Positions 1,163 to 36,916 of a stretch of DNA of 40,143 nucleotides are shown piece after piece. Every line of letters starts with the position of its first letter. Position 1 is the stretch's first letter. This stretch comes from a virus. A program made the translations under genes and the position numbers. The stretch covers positions 1-40,143 of IMG/VR virus record IMGVR_UViG_3300029268_002483. One strand, given 5' to 3'. Below the pieces are notes generated by a model. The model worked only from the letters and a program-made list of their open reading frames with translations, did not search any database and was not told the DNA's origin.

Positions 1163-1493
1163 AAAATTAGCAAAGTACTTAGAAGACAATCATGTTCAAA
1201 AAAATGAATTTTTGCAAGCAATGAATAGTGGAAATCCATATCGAACCTTTGAAGAAGATGGGCTCGATATAGTTGATGGACAAGATGATGATTTAGGATT
1301 TGAACTATTTGAACTACATGTAAAACTTGAATCAAAAAGTGCAAAAAAGTTTTTCGCCTTTATTGATCTTTTTGGGGCAGAAAAAATAATAGATTGGGGG
1401 TCAATGAAAATTGAAAGAGCAAACTTTAATAGAATTTTCCAAATGCTTGGAATGTTTAAATTGGCGAATGCCAATATCCGTTACGCCATATAA
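1137..1493 (+). CDS. Hypothetical early phage protein
   Basis: A 118-residue acidic protein I do not recognise. It starts inside the end of the preceding gene; GGAGG stands 15 bases before the ATG, which is long, and an in-frame stop (TGA at 1128) excludes an earlier start. It begins with MKEVIINGKKLAKYL and has an acidic centre (EEDGLDIVDGQDDD). Its last 26 bases overlap the start of the interrupted helicase reading frame at 1468. The tight packing between a regulator and a helicase suggests an early function in replication or recombination, but nothing in the sequence shows it. Confidence 0.6.
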   Translation: MKEVIINGKKLAKYLEDNHVQKNEFLQAMNSGNPYRTFEEDGLDIVDGQDDDLGFELFELHVKLESKSAKKFFAFIDLFGAEKIIDWGSMKIERANFNRIFQMLGMFKLANANIRYAI

Positions 1494-1569
1494 ACACCAA
1501 CAAGCAGCTTTTCTTTTCGTATTACAAGTTATGGGATACATTCAAAATGAAAGTGCTTGTACCTTGTGA
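1468..1569 (+). pseudogene. N-terminal fragment of the SNF2-type helicase, cut off by the HNH gene
   Basis: Frame reading gives MPISVTPYKHQQAAFLFVLQ, then VMGYIQNES, and then a stop four codons later. The segment YKHQQAAFLFVL resembles the conserved Q-like motif with which phage SNF2 helicases begin, a few tens of residues before the Walker A motif. The continuation (KSVAILAEMGTGKT) is found 434 bases downstream in another frame. The triplet AGT (1552-1554) reappears as AGT (1986-1988), within a shared AAAGT, so removing 434 bases would rejoin the helicase exactly in frame (QNES-KSVAIL). This is therefore the displaced first 29 codons of the helicase. It may be translated as a short peptide, as part of a split protein, or be dead. 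Confidence 0.75.
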
Positions 1570-1990
1570 TAATTGCCTACAAATAATTGAAAAAGATATC
1601 AAAAAGATTAAGAAATTTAACTTTTGCTCTCATAAATGCAAAGACGAATGGAATTCTAATAGATTTTCAAACTTTAACAAAAATGAAAATCCTATGAACT
1701 ATCCAGGTCGGACAATTGATGAAAGATTTGAGATGCGACAAAGAATGCTTAACTTTAACCAAGAAAATAAAAAAAGATGTAAAAGTTACAACAAATATCT
1801 TGGTGAACCGGAACACAGGAGAATTGCACGTCTTAAATTAGGTAGAGATCTACTTCCCAATGAAGTTGTTCATCACATTGATGGCAACATTCATAATAAC
1901 AAGCCAAACAATATTATGGTGATGTTAAAAAGCGAACACACTCGCCTACACATCTCTAATTATTGGAAAGAAAAACATGCAACAAAGTAA
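1547..1990 (+). CDS. HNH homing endonuclease inserted in the helicase gene
   Basis: A 147-residue protein. It starts with a zinc-binding module (CDNC at residues 7-10, then FCSHKC) and ends with an HNH nuclease motif: LLPNEVVHHIDGNIHNNKPNNIMVM, with the paired histidines HHIDG, the Asn-rich centre and a final His in EHTRLH. The arrangement is typical of phage HNH_3-type homing endonucleases, which cut a specific gene and spread by repair. The reading frame begins within helicase sequence on the left (ATG at 1547) and stops within helicase sequence on the right (TAA at 1988-1990), so it fills the whole 434-base insertion. That leaves no obvious room for an intron ribozyme. GGAAAG near its end can serve as ribosome binding site for the downstream helicase part. 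Confidence 0.85.
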   Translation: MKVLVPCDNCLQIIEKDIKKIKKFNFCSHKCKDEWNSNRFSNFNKNENPMNYPGRTIDERFEMRQRMLNFNQENKKRCKSYNKYLGEPEHRRIARLKLGRDLLPNEVVHHIDGNIHNNKPNNIMVMLKSEHTRLHISNYWKEKHATK

Positions 1991-3302
1991 ATCCGTTGCA
2001 ATCTTGGCGGAAATGGGGACGGGAAAAACCTTGATCACAATTGCTCTTGCCGGTGCGTTATTTAACAATGGAAAAATAAAGAAAATGTTGATAGTTGCAC
2101 CACTTTCAATCGTGCCAGTTTGGAAAGAAGAATTTGACAAGTTCGCAGACTTTGATTATCTCCTTGAAATTCTTGGAGGCAACAGCAAAAAGAAAGAAGA
2201 TACACTTCACAATCTTTTTGGAACAAAACTTCAAGTAGCAGTGGTTAACTATGAATCATGTTGGCGTTTAGAAGAAGAACTATCCAAGTGGCAACCAGAT
2301 TTAATTGTATGCGATGAGAGTTCAAAGATAAAAAATCCACAGGCAAAGCAGTCCAAAGCCTTACATAGATTAGGCAAAAAATCCAAACACAATATCATCT
2401 TAACAGGAACGCCAGTAACAAATAATCCACTTGATTTCTTTTCGCAATACAAATTTTTAGATGAAAGTATATTTGGGTCAAGTTATTATTCGTTCCGTGC
2501 AAGATACGCCATTCTTGGCGGGTATGGGAATTATCAAGTTATTGGATATAAAAATTTGCCAGAACTTGTGGAAAAGGCACACAGCATCGCTTACAGAATT
2601 ACAAAAAAAGAAGCATTAGATTTGCCAGAACAAATTGCCACTATTAGATATGTAAACCTTGAACCTATTGCAATGCAATACTATCGTCAAATAGAAAAAG
2701 ATAGTTATGCAGAACTAGAACAAGGCGAAGTTATCACTCGTAATGTACTCACCAAACTGCTTAGATTATCTCAAGTGGCTGGTGGCTTTATAAAATTTGA
2801 AAACGATGATCAAACACATGAAGTGTCAACAGCAAAACTAGATGCACTAGAAGAGATTATTGATGAGTGCCTTGATGCTGATAAAAAACTTGTTGTCTTT
2901 GTGAGATTTATTGCAGAGATTGATGCGATAGAAAGGTTGCTAAAAAAACGCAAGATTGGATACTCGCTTATTAAAGGCGAAGTAGTAGACCGTGCAGAAC
3001 AAGTAAGTAAATTCCAAAACAATAAAGATATCAAAATATTTGTAGGACAAATTCAAACAACAGGAATGGGGTTGACATTAACTGCCGCCGATACTGCCGT
3101 GTTCTTTTCGCTTGACTATAACTTTTCAAACTATGAACAAGCCAAAGCAAGAATACACCGAATTGGGCAGAAAAATAATTGTACCTACATTCACCTAATT
3201 GCACAAAAGACAATCGATGAGAAAGTCCTTGATGCATTGAAAAAAAAGAAAAGCATAGCAGATTTAGTCGTGGACAATTGGCGTTCACTATTCAACAAAT
3301 AA
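1977..3302 (+). CDS. SNF2/DEAD-box-type phage helicase, main part
   Basis: The 441 residues hold nearly all of an SF2 Snf2-like ATPase: Walker A MGTGKT (residues 13-18), the acidic Walker B-type motif CDESSKIKN (112-120), motif III LTGTP, and the C-terminal lobe with QTTGMGLTLTAAD and the motif VI ARIHRIGQ. Such helicases lie in the replication modules of many Bacillota phages and remodel DNA during replication or recombination. The segment normally preceding Walker A is missing here and found at 1468-1554, beyond the inserted HNH gene. The restart ATG (1977) has GGAAAG about eight bases upstream. ATP binding and hydrolysis motifs are intact, so it could work alone or complemented by the short N-terminal peptide. 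Confidence 0.85.
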   Translation: MQQSKSVAILAEMGTGKTLITIALAGALFNNGKIKKMLIVAPLSIVPVWKEEFDKFADFDYLLEILGGNSKKKEDTLHNLFGTKLQVAVVNYESCWRLEEELSKWQPDLIVCDESSKIKNPQAKQSKALHRLGKKSKHNIILTGTPVTNNPLDFFSQYKFLDESIFGSSYYSFRARYAILGGYGNYQVIGYKNLPELVEKAHSIAYRITKKEALDLPEQIATIRYVNLEPIAMQYYRQIEKDSYAELEQGEVITRNVLTKLLRLSQVAGGFIKFENDDQTHEVSTAKLDALEEIIDECLDADKKLVVFVRFIAEIDAIERLLKKRKIGYSLIKGEVVDRAEQVSKFQNNKDIKIFVGQIQTTGMGLTLTAADTAVFFSLDYNFSNYEQAKARIHRIGQKNNCTYIHLIAQKTIDEKVLDALKKKKSIADLVVDNWRSLFNK

Positions 3303-4455: not shown

Positions 4456-6561
4456 ATGGACAACAAATATTATAAAATAGCGAACGAAATTAACATTAAA
4501 GATGTGATCACTAGATATGCAACGCTACAAGGCGGAGATGGTAGAAACACATTTAATTGTCCATTTGCAAACCATCTTGATAGGACAGCCTCTTTTCATA
4601 TTTATGAAGAAACAAATACTTATTGTTGCTTTGGTGGTGGCTGTCCTTACAATGGTTCATCTTGTATTGATTTTGTTAGAGATTTTTTTGGAATTGGTGC
4701 TGATGACGCCTGTAAAAAAATATTACAAGACTTCAACATTGGATTATGTGAGAATATAAAACCAAAGCCTATAAAACAAGAAAATAAATCTATACCATTA
4801 AAAGATTACACTCAATTTTATGAGAAGTCCCATAAAAATGTTGGAGAAACAGACTATTTTAAAAGTCGTGGCTTTACTCAAGCAACAATAGAAAAATATC
4901 AATTAGGATATGCACCATGGATGTATGATGGAAAATATGCGGCAATTATTCCAGTCACAAAAAACTTTTATGTTAATAGAACAACGGTCAATGCAATTCC
5001 TAAAACAAAGAATCTTTATAATACCCCAGTTGAGATCCTAAATGAACATTATCTTTATGAAGATGGCGAAGTTTTTGTGGTTGAAGGTTGGGCTGATGCA
5101 TTAAGTATTGATCAATGTGGCGCAAAAGCAATATCACTAAACGGAACACCAAATGTAAGAAAAATAATTGAGATTAAAGACAAAATCAAAGCCAAACTTA
5201 TTGTTATTGGTGATAATGATATTGCTGGAGAAAAGATGAATAATGAATTGAAAAACTCATTAATTTCACCTTATTGTATTGATGCAATACCAAAACCTTT
5301 CAAAGATGCAAATGAATTATTAATAGCTGATGCAAATAAACTAAAAGAATTTGTTCAAATGAAACGTGAATTTGTTGTTAACGAAAAAAAGAATAATAGT
5401 CAAAAAATAACATTAGATATTGAAAACCTTACAGCAAGCACAATTATTTCAAAAGAAGTAAAGGACTATTTATTAAGTTTTAAAGATCTAACAACAAGAA
5501 TGTCAGAAAACAATAAAATTAGTTTAAAAGCAAAAACACTTAAAGTGGGGACAAATTACAATCAGTTTGTAAATACATTTTTACAAAGTAAAGATTTTGA
5601 TAACAATGATACCCTTTCTGTTCTATTACCTATTAACCTTGACAGTGGTTCTTGGAAAATATGTGACAATGGAGTTAGAAGAAATACACCAAAAGGAATT
5701 GAAGAAGCTTGTTCTCATCCAATTACAATAACAAGGATTTTGATGAATCAATCCACAGATGAGAAAAGAGTTGAACTTGCTTTCTTTGTAAGGGGTAAAT
5801 GGAACACAATAATTGTTGATGCAAACACTATAGCAAATCATCAAAATTTACTAGGACTTGCGAACAAAGGAATTATGGTACATACAGGCAATGCTAAATT
5901 GCTTGGAGAATATTTATCAACTTTACAAGAAAGGAATATGAATATTATTCCTTTTGTAAGATCGGTTTCAAGATTGGGGTGGTTTAATCACGATGAAGAG
6001 TTTAGTCCCTACAATAATTGTGTCTTTGATGGAGATAAGGGTTATCAAGCTATTTATGATGCAATAACTACTCATGGTAGTGAAGAATTATCAAAAAAAG
6101 TTGTAAATATGGCAAGAGAAAATAAAGTTTTAAGAATGATGGTTGCTACAAGTCTTATTAGTCCACTTCTTAAACCAATGAATCAACAAATATTTTTCTA
6201 TCATACTTGGGGAGCAAGTGGGCTTGGTAAATCGGTAGGATTGAAAGTTACTATAAGTTTACATGGAAATCCAGAGATACTTCTTCGAACAATGAACAGC
6301 ACAAATGTTGCCTTTGAAAAATTGGCTGCATTTTGTAATTCTCTACCAGTTGCACTCGACGAACTTCAAGGAATGAATTCAAGGGATGAAATCCAATCAT
6401 TACTATATAGATTGTGTAGTGGAATATCAAAAGGAAGGTCAAATAAACAAGGAACGATCGATGTTGCTGATTATTGGTGTTGTACTTTTATAACAACTGG
6501 CGAACAACCTTTAACTTCTGAAAATTTCGCAGAAGGTGCTTTAAGTCTTCAATTGAATTAA
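4456..6561 (+). CDS. Phage primase-helicase, truncated by a frameshift
   Basis: The 701 residues read as a primase fused to a helicase-like domain. Residues 30-75 form a CHC2-type zinc finger (CPFANHLDRTASFH, CCFGGGC). Residues about 205-260 form a TOPRIM fold (VVEGWADALS, then VIGDNDIAGEKM). Residues about 500-700 match the DUF927 helicase type (SRLGWFN, Walker A GASGLGKS near 590, acidic LDELQGM). The reading frame stops after ALSLQLN, in the middle of this domain. The missing part continues in the -1 frame from 6546. A one-base deletion between about 6534 and 6560, or a sequencing error, explains this. AAGGAG stands eight bases before the ATG. If the break is real, the helicase part is damaged while the primase domains stay whole. 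Confidence 0.85.
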   Translation: MDNKYYKIANEINIKDVITRYATLQGGDGRNTFNCPFANHLDRTASFHIYEETNTYCCFGGGCPYNGSSCIDFVRDFFGIGADDACKKILQDFNIGLCENIKPKPIKQENKSIPLKDYTQFYEKSHKNVGETDYFKSRGFTQATIEKYQLGYAPWMYDGKYAAIIPVTKNFYVNRTTVNAIPKTKNLYNTPVEILNEHYLYEDGEVFVVEGWADALSIDQCGAKAISLNGTPNVRKIIEIKDKIKAKLIVIGDNDIAGEKMNNELKNSLISPYCIDAIPKPFKDANELLIADANKLKEFVQMKREFVVNEKKNNSQKITLDIENLTASTIISKEVKDYLLSFKDLTTRMSENNKISLKAKTLKVGTNYNQFVNTFLQSKDFDNNDTLSVLLPINLDSGSWKICDNGVRRNTPKGIEEACSHPITITRILMNQSTDEKRVELAFFVRGKWNTIIVDANTIANHQNLLGLANKGIMVHTGNAKLLGEYLSTLQERNMNIIPFVRSVSRLGWFNHDEEFSPYNNCVFDGDKGYQAIYDAITTHGSEELSKKVVNMARENKVLRMMVATSLISPLLKPMNQQIFFYHTWGASGLGKSVGLKVTISLHGNPEILLRTMNSTNVAFEKLAAFCNSLPVALDELQGMNSRDEIQSLLYRLCSGISKGRSNKQGTIDVADYWCCTFITTGEQPLTSENFAEGALSLQLN

Positions 6562-7271
6562 ATTTAAAAGAACCTGCCTTTACTGATTTTGCATTAGTAT
6601 TGGATCTTGCAAAAGAAAATTATGGATTTATTGGTAAAAAGTTTATTGAAACAATTCAAAAAACAGGGCTTGAAGACATTTATAAGTTACATAAAGAATT
6701 AAGAACATATATCTCAACCTTTGGCTTTGCAAAAAAGCAGTTAAATTCATTAGCAATGGCTTTTCTTGGTGATCTCCTATTTCAAACAATAATAAATAAT
6801 GTTGAAATAGATAAGGCAATTGAAAGCACTAAGAACTTTATAAAAGACATTGAAATGGAACTTCCAAAAGAAATTGATATAAATTTGGGATATAGAATGT
6901 ATGGCGATATATGTTCTTGGGTTGCAAGAAATATTAGTAAGTTTGATGGAACTGATTCTTATGGCGAAGTTTATGGAACTTTACTTTATAAAGAAAATAT
7001 GAATGAAACAAAAGAACCTTCACATGCGATCATTGATTGCGGTGCATTAAAAGAGATGCTAGCAAAGAAAAATGTAAATTATTGCTCAGTACTTGAAGGG
7101 TTAGGTTCTCTTGGATGCCTTGTTAAGTCGAGTAGAGGAAACACAATAAACTATAGAATTAAGTCCGTTCAAACTACTTGTATTAAATTAATTCTTAATA
7201 AAACATTTAAAAAAGAAATACAAGAGCAAATGGAATTAGTTCCAATAGAAGATAAAGATTTGCCATTTTAA
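6546..7271 (+). pseudogene. C-terminal fragment of the primase-helicase
   Basis: Read from 6546 this frame gives SSIELNLKEPAFTDFALVLD and then DLAKENYGFIGKKFIE, which continues the DUF927 domain broken off at 6561. The expected family pattern after the TTGEQPLTSEN segment is such a joined sequence, so both parts were one protein of about 940 residues. A TTG codon at 6600 could start it independently, but no ribosome binding site precedes it. The C-terminus (residues after LKEMLAKKNVNYCSVLEGL) looks like a small winged-helix end domain. I annotate it as a fragment, not a separate gene. Confidence 0.75.
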
Positions 7272-9707: not shown

Positions 9708-11159
9708 ATGCTGAAAATAATTGAACTATTTGCGGGCATTGGTTCACAAACGCAAGCGCTTAAAAATATTGGAATAGAACACGATGTGATCGCAATTTCG
9801 GACAATGACAAATATGCAGATAAATCTTATCGCGTGATACATAATCCTAATGTTGAAAATTTGTGTGACATAAGAAAAATTGAAAAATTACCAAAAGCAG
9901 ATTTGTGGACTTACTCATTCCCTTGTCAAGATATTTCAGTTGCGGGATTGCAAAAAGGATTTGATAAAGGAAGTTCTACAAGGTCAGGTTTACTTTGGGA
10001 AGTTGAAAGATTACTACTAATAGCAAAACAAACAGACACTCTGCCCAAATATTTATTACTAGAAAATGTCAAAAATTTAATAGGTTCAAAGAACAAAGAC
10101 AACTACGAAAAATGGTTGTCTTTTTTATTGCAGTTAGGATACACCACATATACAAAGGTGTTAAATGCAAAAAACTTTGGTGTACCACAAAACAGAGAAA
10201 GAGTTTTTGGCGTTTCAATACTTGGAAAACATGAACCATTTGTGTTTCCAGAAAATCAAGAGTTGAAGATTAGACTTAAAGATATCTTGGAAACAAATGT
10301 TGATGAAAAATATTACTTAAAAACATCAACAATTATAAGTATCTTAAACACAACTTTCAACCAACGAAAAGGCTTGCTTCATGGCGACAATGATATTTGT
10401 GCAACCCTTTGTGCAAGAGATTACCATGAACCAAAGCTAATAGCAGTTGGGAAGCTTGAAGGCGGCGTTTGGGATAAAAGATATAACCAAATAAGACAAG
10501 TCTTTGATCCTAATGGTATTAGCCCAACCATTATGGCTGGCGGTGGCGGCGGAACGGAAACTAAGATAATTGCAATCCGTGGCAGAAACAACAAACAAGT
10601 TATTGAACCAAATAGCAAAGGGACAAGCAATGCACTTACAACAGTCCAAAAAGACAATTTGGTTATGGAAAAAGAAGATTATATTTCAAGAAAGTATAAA
10701 GATTTTGTTGATAAGAATGGATATATCCCCGAACTTTTTAATCCGTGGAACAAAAAAGAAGTAAACGATATATCTCCAACACAAACAACAAATTGTGGTT
10801 CTAATTCTGCTAGTGCAACAGTCTTAAAAGCAGAAACGCATTGCATTAACAGATATCGAGAAGATGGCAGTGAACGAAGTGTTCAAGAACGAGTGTACGA
10901 TGACAGAGGTGTGAGTGCCGCAGTCATTCCATCGTTTCGTGGAAACATTGCTGAAACAAAAGATATGGAATTAAGCGAGTATTTAAGAATACGAAAACTT
11001 ACTCCAACGGAATGCTGGCGACTTATGGGCTGGAAAGATGAACAAATAAACAAAATCAAAGCAAGTGGAATAAGCAATACACAAATGTACAAACAAGCTG
11101 GAAACGGAATTGTTGTAACAGTGCTTGAAGCAATCTTCAAAAATCTTTTTAAAAATTAG
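9708..11159 (+). CDS. C5-cytosine DNA methyltransferase
   Basis: The 483 residues contain the ordered Dcm motifs: I (IELFAGIGSQTQAL, residues 5-18), IV (SFPCQD, catalytic Cys73), VI (LLENVKNL, 117-124), VIII (QNRERVFGVSI) and the C-terminal motifs IX and X (LTPTECWRLMGW, QAGNGIVVTVLEAI). It transfers methyl groups from SAM to cytosine. The stretch between VIII and IX is long (about 250 residues) and holds the target recognition part, with repeated blocks such as ISPTIMAGGGGG. It starts one base after the small terminase stop and has AAGGAG six bases upstream, so it is transcribed with the late genes. No matching restriction gene is adjacent: probably a solitary enzyme protecting phage DNA. 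Confidence 0.92.
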   Translation: MLKIIELFAGIGSQTQALKNIGIEHDVIAISDNDKYADKSYRVIHNPNVENLCDIRKIEKLPKADLWTYSFPCQDISVAGLQKGFDKGSSTRSGLLWEVERLLLIAKQTDTLPKYLLLENVKNLIGSKNKDNYEKWLSFLLQLGYTTYTKVLNAKNFGVPQNRERVFGVSILGKHEPFVFPENQELKIRLKDILETNVDEKYYLKTSTIISILNTTFNQRKGLLHGDNDICATLCARDYHEPKLIAVGKLEGGVWDKRYNQIRQVFDPNGISPTIMAGGGGGTETKIIAIRGRNNKQVIEPNSKGTSNALTTVQKDNLVMEKEDYISRKYKDFVDKNGYIPELFNPWNKKEVNDISPTQTTNCGSNSASATVLKAETHCINRYREDGSERSVQERVYDDRGVSAAVIPSFRGNIAETKDMELSEYLRIRKLTPTECWRLMGWKDEQINKIKASGISNTQMYKQAGNGIVVTVLEAIFKNLFKN

Positions 11160-12082: not shown

Positions 12083-12089
12083 GTAATTA

Positions 12090-12172
12090 CCTATAAAGAG
12101 TGTGCAAGGGACAGCCCCGTTGACCACACAGCAACCTGCCGTAAGGCAAGGTGCTAAAGGCTGACCGATGGG
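12090..12172 (+). promoter_or_regulatory. S-box (SAM) riboswitch aptamer
   Basis: The conserved S-box core is visible in order: AGAG (12097-12100), AAGGGACAGCCCC, TTGACC, GCAACC, a hairpin TGCC-GTAA-GGCA, then GGTGCTAA. Helix P2a is TGTG/CACA and the closing P1 is CCTAT (12090-12094) with ATGGG (12168-12172). The region after GGTGCTAA (AAGGCTGACC) differs from the commonest SAM-I form, so a SAM-I/IV-type variant is possible. The P1 3' strand can instead pair with CCTATCGG (12196-12203) as antiterminator, so the logic is: SAM bound, P1 forms, terminator folds, metK off. It is followed by metK, the classic S-box target. Confidence 0.85.
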
Positions 12173-12193
12173 AACATTATAAATGATTTTATG

Positions 12194-12242: not shown

Positions 12243-13328
12243 ATGAAAAAAGTAATAACAAGCGAAAGTGTAAATATAGGACACCCTGATAAAACATGCG
12301 ACACCATTGCTGATGCATTCTTAGATGAAGCGTTAAGACAAGATCCAAACAGTCAAATGGCTGTTGAGTGCGCCATCAAAAATAATAAGTTATTTGTTTA
12401 TGGCGAAGCAACAACAAAAGCAAAAATTGATTATGATAAAATCGCAAAAGACATCTTAAAAGACATTGGCTATGAGAATGAATTTGAAATTATAAAAGAA
12501 ATATCAATTCAAAGTCCAGATATCAATCAAGCAGTTATTAAAAAAGAATTATGTGCAAACGATCAAGGAATGGTCTATGGATATGCGACTGATGAAACGC
12601 CAGAATATTTGCCACTGCCTATTGTGATTGCACATAAACTTATGAAGAGATATGAGAGTTTTAGAAGAACTCGCCAAGACTTTTTTGCAGATGCAAAATC
12701 GCAAGTATCTATCATTTATGATGATGACGAACCAAAGGCAATTGGGACAGTTCTTGTGAGTGTTTCTCACAGTGAAAAACTTGCAAAAGAAGAAATAAGA
12801 AACATAATTTGCGAAAAAATTATCTCACCCATTCTTTCGCAATATGCACACTTATTAGGCAACGAAACAGAACTGATAGTAAATCCAAGTGGCAAGTTCA
12901 CAATTTGGGGATCGTTTGGTGATAGTGGTTGTGTTGGCAGAAAAATTGTTGTCGACACTTATGGTGGTGTTGGCAGAGTTGGTGGCGGTTGTTTTAGTTC
13001 AAAAAATGCAACAAAAGTTGACCGCAGTGGTGCTTATTACGCAAGATATGTTGCAAAGAATATTGTTGCACACGGTTATGCCCATAAATGCGAAATACAA
13101 GTTGCTTATGGCATAGGACTAGCCGAACCAATAAGTATTTACATAGAAACTTTTGGGACAAACCTAAAAACATTAGATGAGATTGAAGATTATGTAAAAG
13201 ACAATTTTTCTTTCAGACCAAGCAATATAATAAAAGAATTAGACTTATTAAAACCAATCTATAAATCAACCGCTTGCTATGGACATTTTGGTCGTGATGA
13301 GTTTAGTTGGGAAAAGATTAAGAATTGA
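12243..13328 (+). CDS. metK: S-adenosylmethionine synthetase
   Basis: The 361 residues contain the three typical methionine adenosyltransferase signatures: GHPDK (13-17), NDQGMVYGYATDET (106-119; usually GAGDQG) and GGGCFSSKNATKVDRS (247-262; usually GGGAFSGKDPTKVDRS). It makes SAM from ATP and methionine. The ATP- and phosphate-binding lysines and Asp of the last motif (K254, K258, D260) are kept, while the SGKD aspartate is Asn; catalysis is therefore probably intact. AAAGGAAG lies nine bases before ATG. It is shorter than usual host enzymes (about 390) and sits within phage cargo, beside DNA methyltransferases, under an S-box: it is likely to supply SAM for methylation. Confidence 0.92.
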   Translation: MKKVITSESVNIGHPDKTCDTIADAFLDEALRQDPNSQMAVECAIKNNKLFVYGEATTKAKIDYDKIAKDILKDIGYENEFEIIKEISIQSPDINQAVIKKELCANDQGMVYGYATDETPEYLPLPIVIAHKLMKRYESFRRTRQDFFADAKSQVSIIYDDDEPKAIGTVLVSVSHSEKLAKEEIRNIICEKIISPILSQYAHLLGNETELIVNPSGKFTIWGSFGDSGCVGRKIVVDTYGGVGRVGGGCFSSKNATKVDRSGAYYARYVAKNIVAHGYAHKCEIQVAYGIGLAEPISIYIETFGTNLKTLDEIEDYVKDNFSFRPSNIIKELDLLKPIYKSTACYGHFGRDEFSWEKIKN

Positions 13329-14680: not shown

Positions 14681-14720
14681 CTATTTCTATTACTATTATA
14701 CGCAAAAAATAAATAAATGC

Positions 14721-14751
14721 AACCATTTGCTGAAAAACAAGTGGTTTTTTT
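14721..14751 (+). terminator. Terminator between the RNA element and the methyltransferase gene
   Basis: AACCATTTG pairs with CAAGTGGTT (one G-T pair) around an 8-base loop, followed by seven T (14745-14751). The methyltransferase ATG follows 19 nt after the T-run. It closes the fic transcript, or acts as a regulated terminator for the methyltransferase gene. Confidence 0.75.
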
Positions 14752-14770
14752 ATGCCTTAAAGGAGATAAA

Positions 14771-16138
14771 ATGCAAATTGAAAAGAAAAAAATATCAGAC
14801 CTAAAACCAGCAGACTACAATCCTAGAATACAACTAAAACCTGGGGACAAAGAGTTTGAAAAACTTAAAAACAGCATTCTTGAATTTGGCTATGTTGAAC
14901 CAATTATTTGGAATAAGAAAACGGGCAATGTTGTTGGCGGGCATCAAAGACTTGAAGTTATGAAATATCTTGGCGAAACAGAAGTTGATTGCGTGATTGT
15001 TGATATAGATGAAAAGAAAGAAAAAGCACTCAATGTTGCACTCAACAAAATTAACGGCGAATGGGACACAAACAAGTTGACTGATTTACTTAAAGAACTT
15101 GATGGCGATGGACTTTCTGCCCTTACGGGTTTTGACCTAAAAGAACTTGATGAAATATTCTCTGGCACAATATACGATGTTAAAGAAGATGACTTTGATG
15201 CTGAAACTGAACTTCAAGAAATACCTATTCCATTTTCAAAACAAGGCGATATTTGGCACATTAAAAACCACAAAGTTATGTGTGGCGATAGTACCAAACT
15301 TAATGATGTTATAAGGTTGTTAGGCGACAAATTTGCCGATTTAATCGTGACTGATCCACCATACAATATTGACTATGGCAATGCCGAATCAGACCGTGCA
15401 AAAGCAATGGGAAAAGAAGTTCAAGCCGTTAGAAATATATTAAACGATAATATGGACGATGAAAACTTTTACACTTTCCTTTTAGATTTTTTCAAGGCTA
15501 GTTATCAAGTGATTAAAGGTGGCGGGGTTGTCTATGTATTCCACTCAACAAAAGAATCAGTCAACTTTATTTCTGCAATGAAAAATGCGGGGTTCAAAGT
15601 ATCTCAAACCTTAATATGGGCAAAAGACCATTTCACTCTTGGCAGAAACGATTATCAATGGCAACACGAACCAATTCTTTATGGTTGGAAAGTTGCAGAA
15701 GGTAAGCCCCATTATTTTATTCACGATAGAACTCAATCAAATATTTTTGATAATAGAAATGACTTTACAAAGTTAAAGAAAGAAGAGCTTGTGAAACTGC
15801 TTGAAGACATTTTTGCAAACACTCAAAGCGATATCATAAACGATAACAAACCACTTCGAAATACCGAACACCCCACAATGAAACCAATAACATTATGTGG
15901 AAAACTTATTAACAACAGTTCTCGTGAAAGAGAGATTGTTTTTGATGCATTTGCTGGCAGTGGTTCAACACTGATGGCGGCGGAACAATTAAATAGAATT
16001 TCATACAACATTGAACTTGATGAAAAGTATTGTGATGTAATTGTAAAGAGATTTATTAAGTCATTTGGCGATAGTGAAATAACCCTTGAAAGAGATGGGA
16101 AAATAATACCTTTATGTGAAACAAAATTAGCAAATTAA
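14771..16138 (+). CDS. ParB-like domain fused to an adenine/N4-cytosine DNA methyltransferase
   Basis: The 455 residues start with a ParB-like domain (1-130; LKPADYNPR, GGHQRLEVMKYL at 56-67) and continue with a methyltransferase: motif IV DPPY (195-198), motif I FAGSGST (about 394-400) near the C-terminus. IV before I marks the beta class; DPPY fits amino methylation of adenine or N4-cytosine. Such fusions are common in phages beside terminase. Start: AAAGGAG lies eight bases before ATG 14771; an in-frame ATG at 14717 is inside the terminator region and has no ribosome binding site. No partner restriction gene. Target sequence unknown. Confidence 0.9.
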   Translation: MQIEKKKISDLKPADYNPRIQLKPGDKEFEKLKNSILEFGYVEPIIWNKKTGNVVGGHQRLEVMKYLGETEVDCVIVDIDEKKEKALNVALNKINGEWDTNKLTDLLKELDGDGLSALTGFDLKELDEIFSGTIYDVKEDDFDAETELQEIPIPFSKQGDIWHIKNHKVMCGDSTKLNDVIRLLGDKFADLIVTDPPYNIDYGNAESDRAKAMGKEVQAVRNILNDNMDDENFYTFLLDFFKASYQVIKGGGVVYVFHSTKESVNFISAMKNAGFKVSQTLIWAKDHFTLGRNDYQWQHEPILYGWKVAEGKPHYFIHDRTQSNIFDNRNDFTKLKKEELVKLLEDIFANTQSDIINDNKPLRNTEHPTMKPITLCGKLINNSSREREIVFDAFAGSGSTLMAAEQLNRISYNIELDEKYCDVIVKRFIKSFGDSEITLERDGKIIPLCETKLAN

Positions 16139-34955: not shown

Positions 34956-36164
34956 ATGACGATATCACAAATAATAGAAAATATTATGAAAAACCAGAAA
35001 TTAAATCAAACTAAATTTGCTAATTCAATAAATAGCACCCAGGCACAAGTAAGTGACTGGATATCTGGTAAAAGTAAACCAAATTATGATAATTTAAAAT
35101 CTATTTGTGAAAATTATAATATAGATGGAAATGTCATTTTAAATGTTGGTAATAAAAAAAGAAAATTTACTAATATAGAATTATTTGCTGGTGCTGGCGG
35201 GCTTGCTTTAGGATTAGAACAAGCAGGATTTGACAATTTGTTATCAAATGATTTTGATAACAATTCTTGTTTAACATTAAAAGCAAATAGACCTGAGTGG
35301 AATGTTGTATGCGAACCAATAGAATTATTAGCAGAAAGAAATTTATTAACTTTTTTAAACTTAAAAGAGGGCGAACTTGATTTATTGTCTGGTGGATATC
35401 CATGTCAATCTTTTAGTTATGCAGGCAAAAGATTAGGATTAAATGATATTCGCGGTACAATGTTTTATTACTATGCTGAAATATTAAAACAATTAAAGCC
35501 TAAAATGTTTTTAGCAGAAAATGTTAAAGGATTAGTAAGTCACGATAAAGGGAAAACGCTTCAAACCATGATAGATGTATTTCAAGAAATTGGTTATAAA
35601 GTTAAATACAAAGTATTAAATGCATGGGATTATGGAGTTGCAGAAAAAAGAGAAAGAATTGTAATGATTGGAGTAAGAAATAATCTGGATATAGATTTCG
35701 AATATCCAGAACCTCACATTTATAAGCCAGTTTTAAGAGATGCATTAAAAAATGTTCCATTATCAGAAGGTGCTTTGTATCCACAAAAGAAAAAAGAGGT
35801 GTTTGATTTAGTCCCTCCAGGTGGATGTTGGAGAAGCTTGCCAGAACAAATTGCAAAAGAGTATATGAAAGGCTCTTATGGTTTAGGTGGCGGGAAAACA
35901 GGTATGGCACGAAGAATATCATGGGATGAGCCGAGTTTAGCAATACTTTGTTCTCCTTGTATGAAACAAACTGATAGATGTCATCCAGATGAAACTAGAC
36001 CATTTACAGTTAGAGAAAGTGCAAGAATACAATCTTTTCCAGATGATTGGAAATTTTGTGGGAATATGTTAAACCAATATAAACAGATTGGGAATGCAGT
36101 TCCAGTTAATTTTGCAAAAGAAATCGGTTTGGCTATAATTAAAGCATTAAAGGAGATAAAATAA
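34956..36164 (+). CDS. C5-cytosine methyltransferase with N-terminal HTH domain
   Basis: The 402 residues: an XRE-type helix-turn-helix (1-60: NQTKFANSINSTQAQVSDWISGKSKP), then the C5 methyltransferase with motif I (ELFAGAGG, 75-82), motif IV (GGYPCQSF, Cys150), ENV motif (LAENVKGL), EKRERIV, target part (GGGKTGMARRISW) and IX/X (RESARIQSFPDDW, QIGNAVP). Such HTH-fused enzymes (as M.SsoII) repress their own promoter, replacing a separate controller protein. The Eco47II-like endonuclease starts at its stop codon, so this is the modification half of a restriction-modification system, probably for GGNCC. Confidence 0.92.
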   Translation: MTISQIIENIMKNQKLNQTKFANSINSTQAQVSDWISGKSKPNYDNLKSICENYNIDGNVILNVGNKKRKFTNIELFAGAGGLALGLEQAGFDNLLSNDFDNNSCLTLKANRPEWNVVCEPIELLAERNLLTFLNLKEGELDLLSGGYPCQSFSYAGKRLGLNDIRGTMFYYYAEILKQLKPKMFLAENVKGLVSHDKGKTLQTMIDVFQEIGYKVKYKVLNAWDYGVAEKRERIVMIGVRNNLDIDFEYPEPHIYKPVLRDALKNVPLSEGALYPQKKKEVFDLVPPGGCWRSLPEQIAKEYMKGSYGLGGGKTGMARRISWDEPSLAILCSPCMKQTDRCHPDETRPFTVRESARIQSFPDDWKFCGNMLNQYKQIGNAVPVNFAKEIGLAIIKALKEIK

Positions 36165-36916
36165 TGGCATATTTAAAATTTATTAGTGATATAGATTTAG
36201 AAAATCACATTAAAAATACCCTATCTACATATTCAAATACTATTAAAAGTATTAATTTATCAAAGTTTAATAGCAATATTATAGATCCTATAAAACTAAC
36301 ATTTGATAGTAATGTCTATTCAAAAAATATGGAAACAATTATAAAAGAAGAAATTGTTCGTCAAAGAGATAAAACTAATACAAATGCAATAGGTTGTTTC
36401 CATCAAAACATCTTCAATTATGTAAAGAATTGTGAAGTTCCAAAACATGGTTTTGATATTATTTACACAAAACCTGACAAAACAAAAATTTATGTTGAAT
36501 TAAAGAATAAGCATAATACTATGAACTCTAGTTCATCACAAAAGACATACATGAAATTATCTTCCAAAGCATTACAAGAGCCTTCTTGTGAATGTTATTT
36601 GGTTGAAATTATAGCAAAACACAGTCAAAATATTCAATGGTCAGTATCTTTAGATGGTGAAAGGGTTGGCAACGAAAAAGTAAGAAGAGTGTCTATTGAT
36701 AAATTTTACGAAATAGTTACTGGCGAGAAGGATTCTTTTTTCAATTTATGCCAAATATTGCCTTCGCTTATTAAAAAAATTATAGATTCTAATGAACAAT
36801 TGGTAGTAGAAGAAGATACAGTTATACAAGAATTAAGAGATAAAAATAAAGATTTACTTAAAGCGATGTATCTGCTTGCGTTTTCGACTTATGAAGGATT
36901 CGATAATTTAAAATGA
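36164..36916 (+). CDS. Type II restriction endonuclease, Eco47II-like
   Basis: The 250 residues have the pattern LKFISDIDLENHIKNTL, FNSNIIDPIKLTFDSNVY, EEIVRQRDKTNTNAIGCFHQNIFNYV, and FDIIYTKPDKTKIYVELKNKHNTMNSS. The FDII...YVELKNK stretch is a PD-(D/E)XK active site. I recognise this as the Eco47II/Sau96I-like family, which cuts GGNCC. The start codon overlaps the stop of the methyltransferase, ensuring that protection is made first. AAGGAG lies eight bases before ATG. It overlaps the next gene by four bases. Confidence 0.85.
   Translation: MAYLKFISDIDLENHIKNTLSTYSNTIKSINLSKFNSNIIDPIKLTFDSNVYSKNMETIIKEEIVRQRDKTNTNAIGCFHQNIFNYVKNCEVPKHGFDIIYTKPDKTKIYVELKNKHNTMNSSSSQKTYMKLSSKALQEPSCECYLVEIIAKHSQNIQWSVSLDGERVGNEKVRRVSIDKFYEIVTGEKDSFFNLCQILPSLIKKIIDSNEQLVVEEDTVIQELRDKNKDLLKAMYLLAFSTYEGFDNLK

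Follow-up and report, generated by a model that had tools for sequence, protein, structure and literature searches.

Homing genes and apparently skipped inserts in phages

A close known counterpart of the locus presented here is nrdA of Aeromonas phage Aeh1, which is split by the HNH gene mobE and for which a functional split enzyme was reported (PMC2988022). In phage T4, the HNH homing gene mobA also splits a phage gene, and a nearby insert skipped by ribosomes may protect from cleavage, according to a 2016 review (PMC5009743, citing its reference 158). In the same review, short counterparts of the gene 60 bypass are described as long presumed to exist; synthetic stop-hops work and no natural in-frame stop-hop was known (PMC5009743). 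In the open-access literature searched, which leaves most subscription journals outside, no report was found of hopping in phage helicases or of a later natural stop-hop. To our knowledge, ribosome hops over an insert are so far known from one phage gene, yeast mitochondria and synthetic constructs.

The window analysed is a whole virus record of 40,143 bases. It is similar to Aeh1 mobE/nrdA in that an intron-less HNH homing gene is found within an essential phage gene, two polypeptides probably replacing one. In contrast to Aeh1, the target is a helicase gene, interrupted before its Walker A motif, and splits at this one site are seen on several branches, with HNHs that differ widely, and even after loss of the HNH gene. 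Relatives of the window pair an HNH gene with a nearby and apparently skipped insert, as does T4 with mobA and the 50-nt gene 60 bypass, whereas the helicase gene of the window is split and carries no micro-insert.

Organization of the split helicase locus

All features of the locus are located on the + strand. The helicase N-piece (1468-1569, 33 aa) begins with MPISVTPYKHQ, the start of the Q motif (PYKHQ) typical of SNF2 helicases, and is homologous with the N-terminus of intact relatives up to about codon 23. The translation of 1468-1554 is MPISVTPYKHQQAAFLFVLQVMGYIQNES and the open frame continues to a TGA at 1567-1569. The HNH homing endonuclease gene (1547-1990, 147 aa) starts within the N-piece frame. 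Its product matches the Pfam HNH_3 profile (E 7e-8; 32.4 bits for a cut-off of 24.8) and the PHROG HNH endonuclease (E 3e-12), and carries the catalytic motif, whose HH...N...H columns are invariant in the alignment of HNHs. The TAA stop of this gene is drawn from the target's own AGT AAA codons (the Ser-Lys of the helicase, read AG-TAA-A). The C-piece (1977-3302, 441 aa) has its own ATG, located 6 bases after a GGAAAG (1965-1970) that lies within the HNH gene and is, from its sequence, the probable ribosome binding site. It matches SNF2-rel_dom (E 2e-36) and Helicase_C (E 1e-14) in Pfam and the PHROG DNA helicase (E 1e-137). With SNF2-rel_dom, Helicase_C and the Q motif all found, the protein is identified as an SNF2 helicase; an intact relative matches the solved Rad54-family structure 1z63 over residues 8-453. 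The Walker A codons (M G T G K T, 2013-2030) are unbroken in the window, at a position that is the site of 1-16 nt insertions in most HNH-bearing relatives.

The original prediction described 1468-3302 as an SNF2 helicase split by an HNH gene. This observation is confirmed, and Pfam identifies the helicase C-piece and the HNH domain at these positions. Deletion of 434 bases (1555-1988) does fuse both helicase frames, and the HNH gene fills the insertion, beginning in the left part and ending in the right part. As also proposed, the end of the HNH gene supplies a start signal for the C-piece (GGAAAG followed by ATG): an ATG or GTG is present 14-16 codons before the Walker lysine in all 19 loci of the split class that were checked (19/19), in a purine-rich context inside the HNH gene.

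The presence of AAAGT on both sides of the insertion had been pointed out as well. Both copies exist (1550-1554 and 1984-1988) and the repeat is not conserved. The left copy forms part of HNH codons 2-3, and relatives such as L002, L005 and L006 do not have it; the repeat is therefore no evidence of a target duplication, an explanation that was discarded. For the same reason the ancestral junction can be placed only to within a few codons, and the N-piece may owe its tail to the insert.

Several other features of the record are worth mentioning. A SAM-I riboswitch (56 bits, 12088-12174) is found directly upstream of an S-adenosylmethionine synthetase gene (12243-13328). Three DNA methylase genes are present (9708-11159, 14717-16138 and 34956-36164), the last of which, a cytosine methylase, has an Eco47II-type restriction endonuclease (Pfam E 9e-87) as its neighbour; the two (34956-36916) look like a complete restriction-modification pair. 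At 6480-6660, a DUF927 primase-helicase gene stops early in frame (LTSENFAEGALSLQLN*) and its homology resumes in another frame, which may reflect a sequencing error, decay or recoding. This gene was absent near the locus in the close relatives examined here.

Empty sites and recurrence of the split

Uninterrupted relatives of the joined protein were found, in agreement with the original prediction. A related helicase was identified in 44 viral loci and is uninterrupted in approximately half of them; in most of the interrupted ones, an HNH gene separates the Q motif from Walker A. Of the 3,292 records of the phage collection that match, 2,925 span 80% or more of the joined protein in a single place, and the uninterrupted helicase is therefore the norm. 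An empty-site pair is provided by L042 (intact) and L021/L022 (split), whose helicases are about 76% identical and form one fully supported clade. Their DNA can be aligned as far as approximately where the Q-motif helix ends; the alignment resumes at the Ser-Lys codons, and the HNH gene occupies the space between. The HNH gene is thus seen as a present/absent polymorphism at a fixed site of a conserved helicase gene.

In 17 deduplicated loci, the HNH stop lies exactly 34 nt upstream of the codon for the Walker A Lys, and in one more the distance is 37 nt. Since the arrangement is found in 18 deduplicated loci, it is not due to chance. The HNHs of this split class diverge down to 25% identity, and the split without micro-insertion is found on at least three branches of the helicase tree, where it requires three changes, each of them forced by starred branches. 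Taken together, this suggests that the same helicase site was probably hit more than once; a single gain of the split followed by losses is compatible with the change counts alone. The helicase tree shows 32 changes in whether the HNH gene is present, indicating that this gene is mobile.

A probable two-polypeptide helicase

Both pieces appear to be kept by selection. Across nine split loci the N-piece has a pN/pS of 0.16, a rough ratio with synonymous sites near saturation. The values for its codons 10-23, a stretch that the upstream gene does not overlap (0.22), and for the 60 codons of the C-piece that follow Walker A (0.25) are equally rough, for the same near-saturation. Because the N-piece shares sequence with neighbouring genes, its conservation could be due in part to these overlapping frames. 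The split also persists where the HNH gene has been lost. In L009/L010 the HNH gene is absent and the N-piece and C-piece are still separate, in overlapping frames; in Faecalibacterium phage FP_Epona it is also gone, and other genes occupy the approximately 1.2 kb that separate the N-piece from the C-piece downstream. All these HNH-less split loci still encode a separate Q-motif N-piece upstream. Persistence of the split after HNH loss, together with selection on the small piece, fits an enzyme made of two polypeptides and not splicing.

HNH genes are often carried by introns, and the joined helicase frame is intact, so that a small self-splicing or otherwise removed intron carrying the HNH gene might yield one continuous helicase. 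However, the HNH open reading frame takes all 434 nt, leaving no space for a ribozyme, and neither the gathering nor the permissive thresholds of Rfam gave a match to an intron or RNA family in 1100-2500; the folded intron ribozyme that the original prediction named as contrary evidence was not detected in this search of the locus, and the intron was rejected on these grounds. In addition, a C-piece start codon with a purine-rich site is found in every member and the split remains without any insert in L009/L010, which leaves the intron very improbable. Helicases starting near MQQSKSVAIL, the other contrary case that had been foreseen, do occur, but only in split loci. The C-piece might also work alone, the N-piece being a remnant: it includes Walker A and the downstream SNF2 and Helicase_C domains. 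This possibility is unlikely, though less so than the intron. It is at odds with the selection measured on the N-piece across the nine loci and with the retention of this piece in FP_Epona despite the intervening genes; selection on the N-piece and a split outliving the HNH gene make a dispensable N-piece improbable. The best reading of these sequences is a two-polypeptide helicase. The proposal that the homing gene made it is thus backed by uninterrupted relatives, the lack of an intron match, the start signal of the C-piece and selection on the N-piece.

A wider HNH family beside SNF2 helicases

Loci were collected with HNH and helicase queries, and the frequencies given here describe this sample and not all phages. 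Scanning with the window HNH protein as sole query gave just one distant relative, and a second scan with the window-type HNH alignment brought back the close split loci and added no close member to them. Wider relatives were gathered with a profile of these HNHs, in viral contigs and bacterial genomes. Beyond the original prediction, the split recurs at one nucleotide, and its HNH comes from a large family linked to the Walker A codons of SNF2 helicases, most members of which accompany a device other than the split.

About 125 distinct loci have a family HNH directly in front of an SNF2 helicase. The bacterial genomes are mostly those of Bacillota, some of them from isolates (Hespellia stercorisuis DSM 15480, Youngiibacter fragilis and Lacrimispora defluvii); the phages include Paenibacillus phage Pd_22F and two Ruminococcus phages. 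Breaks of the helicase frame within Walker A are seen in 81 of the 126 deduplicated HNH-bearing loci (L281 and L121 being doubtful) compared to 8 of 96 without HNH. Two of these eight, L009/L010, are in fact splits, leaving six real breaks, among them that of Fusobacterium phage phiPaco. Many loci are related, so that locus counts exceed event counts, and tree-based tests correct for this only partly: in independent pairs of the helicase tree that differ in HNH, the insertion differs the same way in 12.8 and the opposite way in 1.1 (averages; median p 0.002). Some loci are metagenome assemblies; the same insertion is found in the separately sequenced Pd_22F and Paenibacillus sp. 2.1. Among HNH-bearing helicases that are neither split nor broken, 14/25 have Cys for the Met preceding the first Walker glycine, against 5/88 without HNH. 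The split and a micro-insertion occur together in some loci (e.g. L019, L037, L106-L112).

Walker A breaks beside an HNH gene are also observed in more distant helicases (L235 and L276); L276 has a separate N-piece plus CTT TGA CTA. L316 and L317, whose helicases are 96.7% identical, differ by a 4-nt Walker A insertion present in just one of them, with HNH in neither; the insertion therefore comes or goes quickly. HNHs of the same kind are found in Mycobacterium phages Mantra, ShiLan and Bipolar (H141-H150), where they lie under genes with a DNA methyltransferase annotation; this might be a further target that is split or fused.

Short insertions in the Walker A motif

Automatic minimal-insertion calling misplaced many insertions and was replaced by a profile-anchored method, with which 65 distinct insertions of 1-16 nt were placed. 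In 46/65, the presumed take-off and landing codons encode the same amino acid and have their first two bases equal, compared to about 16% of simulated random insertions (maximum 29% in 500 runs). Two of three pairs are kept in all 65 (65/65; 37% for the null). A stop codon follows the take-off codon directly in 58/65, where 6-10% are expected. Representative breaks are ATG GGC TTA GGT TA GGT AAA (Pd_22F), GGT CTT TAG CTT GGA AAA (L105), GGA CTT TAA CTG GGC AAA (L103) and GGC GTC TAG GTC GGC AAA (L102). The four-base class (GGT TAGC, GGT TGAC; one landing mismatch) could instead correspond to a +1 shift, by which the P-loop would gain a residue. Three helicase genes contain two successive breaks, each flanked by matching codons: GAA TAGCCCC GAA then GGT TA GGT in L095, GAA TGACGCCCCATA GAA then GGT TGAAAACC GGA in L155, and GAG..GAG then GGC TAGCGA GGC in L164.

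These micro-insertions look like natural short ribosome hops that would shield the target of the nuclease; we infer both hopping and cleavage from the sequences. They differ from T4 gene 60 in their length (1-16 nt), their position inside a catalytic motif and their dozens of forms, and also in that no 5' or 3' RNA structure signal accompanies them: folding z-scores around the micro-insertions are near control values on both sides, and RNA structure was not retained as a stimulator of the hop. Synthetic short hops define no need for such a structure. Compared to the synthetic E. coli stop-hops and the Magnusiomyces mitochondrial bypass elements, the inserts are natural, tied to a nuclease gene and found in phages and prophages of many bacteria.

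Insertions at a presumed target beside a nuclease gene might also be scars of HNH cuts in destroyed helicase genes, with no bypass. However, the helicase after the insertion is under purifying selection in seven groups (pN/pS 0.10-0.49) and, since selection continues downstream, dead genes cannot explain the breaks. The flanking codons, which match far beyond chance, and the stop following take-off in most cases also make scars improbable. Stop and restart inside Walker A, giving two polypeptides, is still less probable. A possible TTG start is present at the break in some loci, and phiPaco is annotated in this way, but only 16/74 offer a possible start (ATG, GTG or TTG) upstream of the lysine in the open frame, with 9 within four codons. 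Restart thus cannot account for the breaks and was rejected, start codons being mostly missing; it would also leave the matching codons unexplained. We consider it likely, with somewhat less confidence than for the split of the window, that one HNH family targets the SNF2 Walker A and that its carriers are protected by the split, by the Met-to-Cys change or, mostly, by a hopped insertion of 1-16 nt. The latter, crossed between matching codons over a stop, would make short stop-hops a large class in nature, acquired together with the nuclease on many independent occasions.

Proposed origin and maintenance of the split

For the window, we favour the following scenario, with a probability of roughly 80%. 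An HNH homing endonuclease gene without intron would have entered the gene of a phage SNF2 helicase after the Q motif and before Walker A, splitting it into two pieces that together would form the enzyme; Walker A would be the target and the carrier would be immune. The gene order, the overlap, the empty site, the recurrence at one nucleotide and the selection on both pieces can be read from the DNA. The remaining steps are predicted. A polycistronic message would give three proteins by coupled starts (N-piece, HNH and C-piece), and the small N-piece, with the Q motif and the first helix, would assemble with the C-piece into a working helicase. The nuclease would recognise the conserved Walker A region of insert-free helicase genes, and repair of the break from an insert-bearing phage would copy the HNH gene into them. 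The carrier is proposed to be immune because the insertion parts the two halves of the target. Relatives of the family would gain immunity otherwise, by a Walker A insertion of 1-16 nt hopped by ribosomes or by the Met-to-Cys change at the target.

Implications

The helicase of the window adds a second kind to the phage enzymes that homing genes have split, and the independent and HNH-free examples are numerous enough to study how a two-piece P-loop helicase works. Helicases with Walker A insertions are currently annotated as fragments or separate small proteins (e.g. in phiPaco and Pd_22F). If the interpretation of these insertions is correct, many natural short hops would take place in ordinary bacterial translation, varying in distance (1-16 nt), codon and stop, and would fill a gap for the recoding field, that of natural short ribosome hops. 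The most conserved codons of an enzyme would then be the target of a nuclease and would be defended by recoding.
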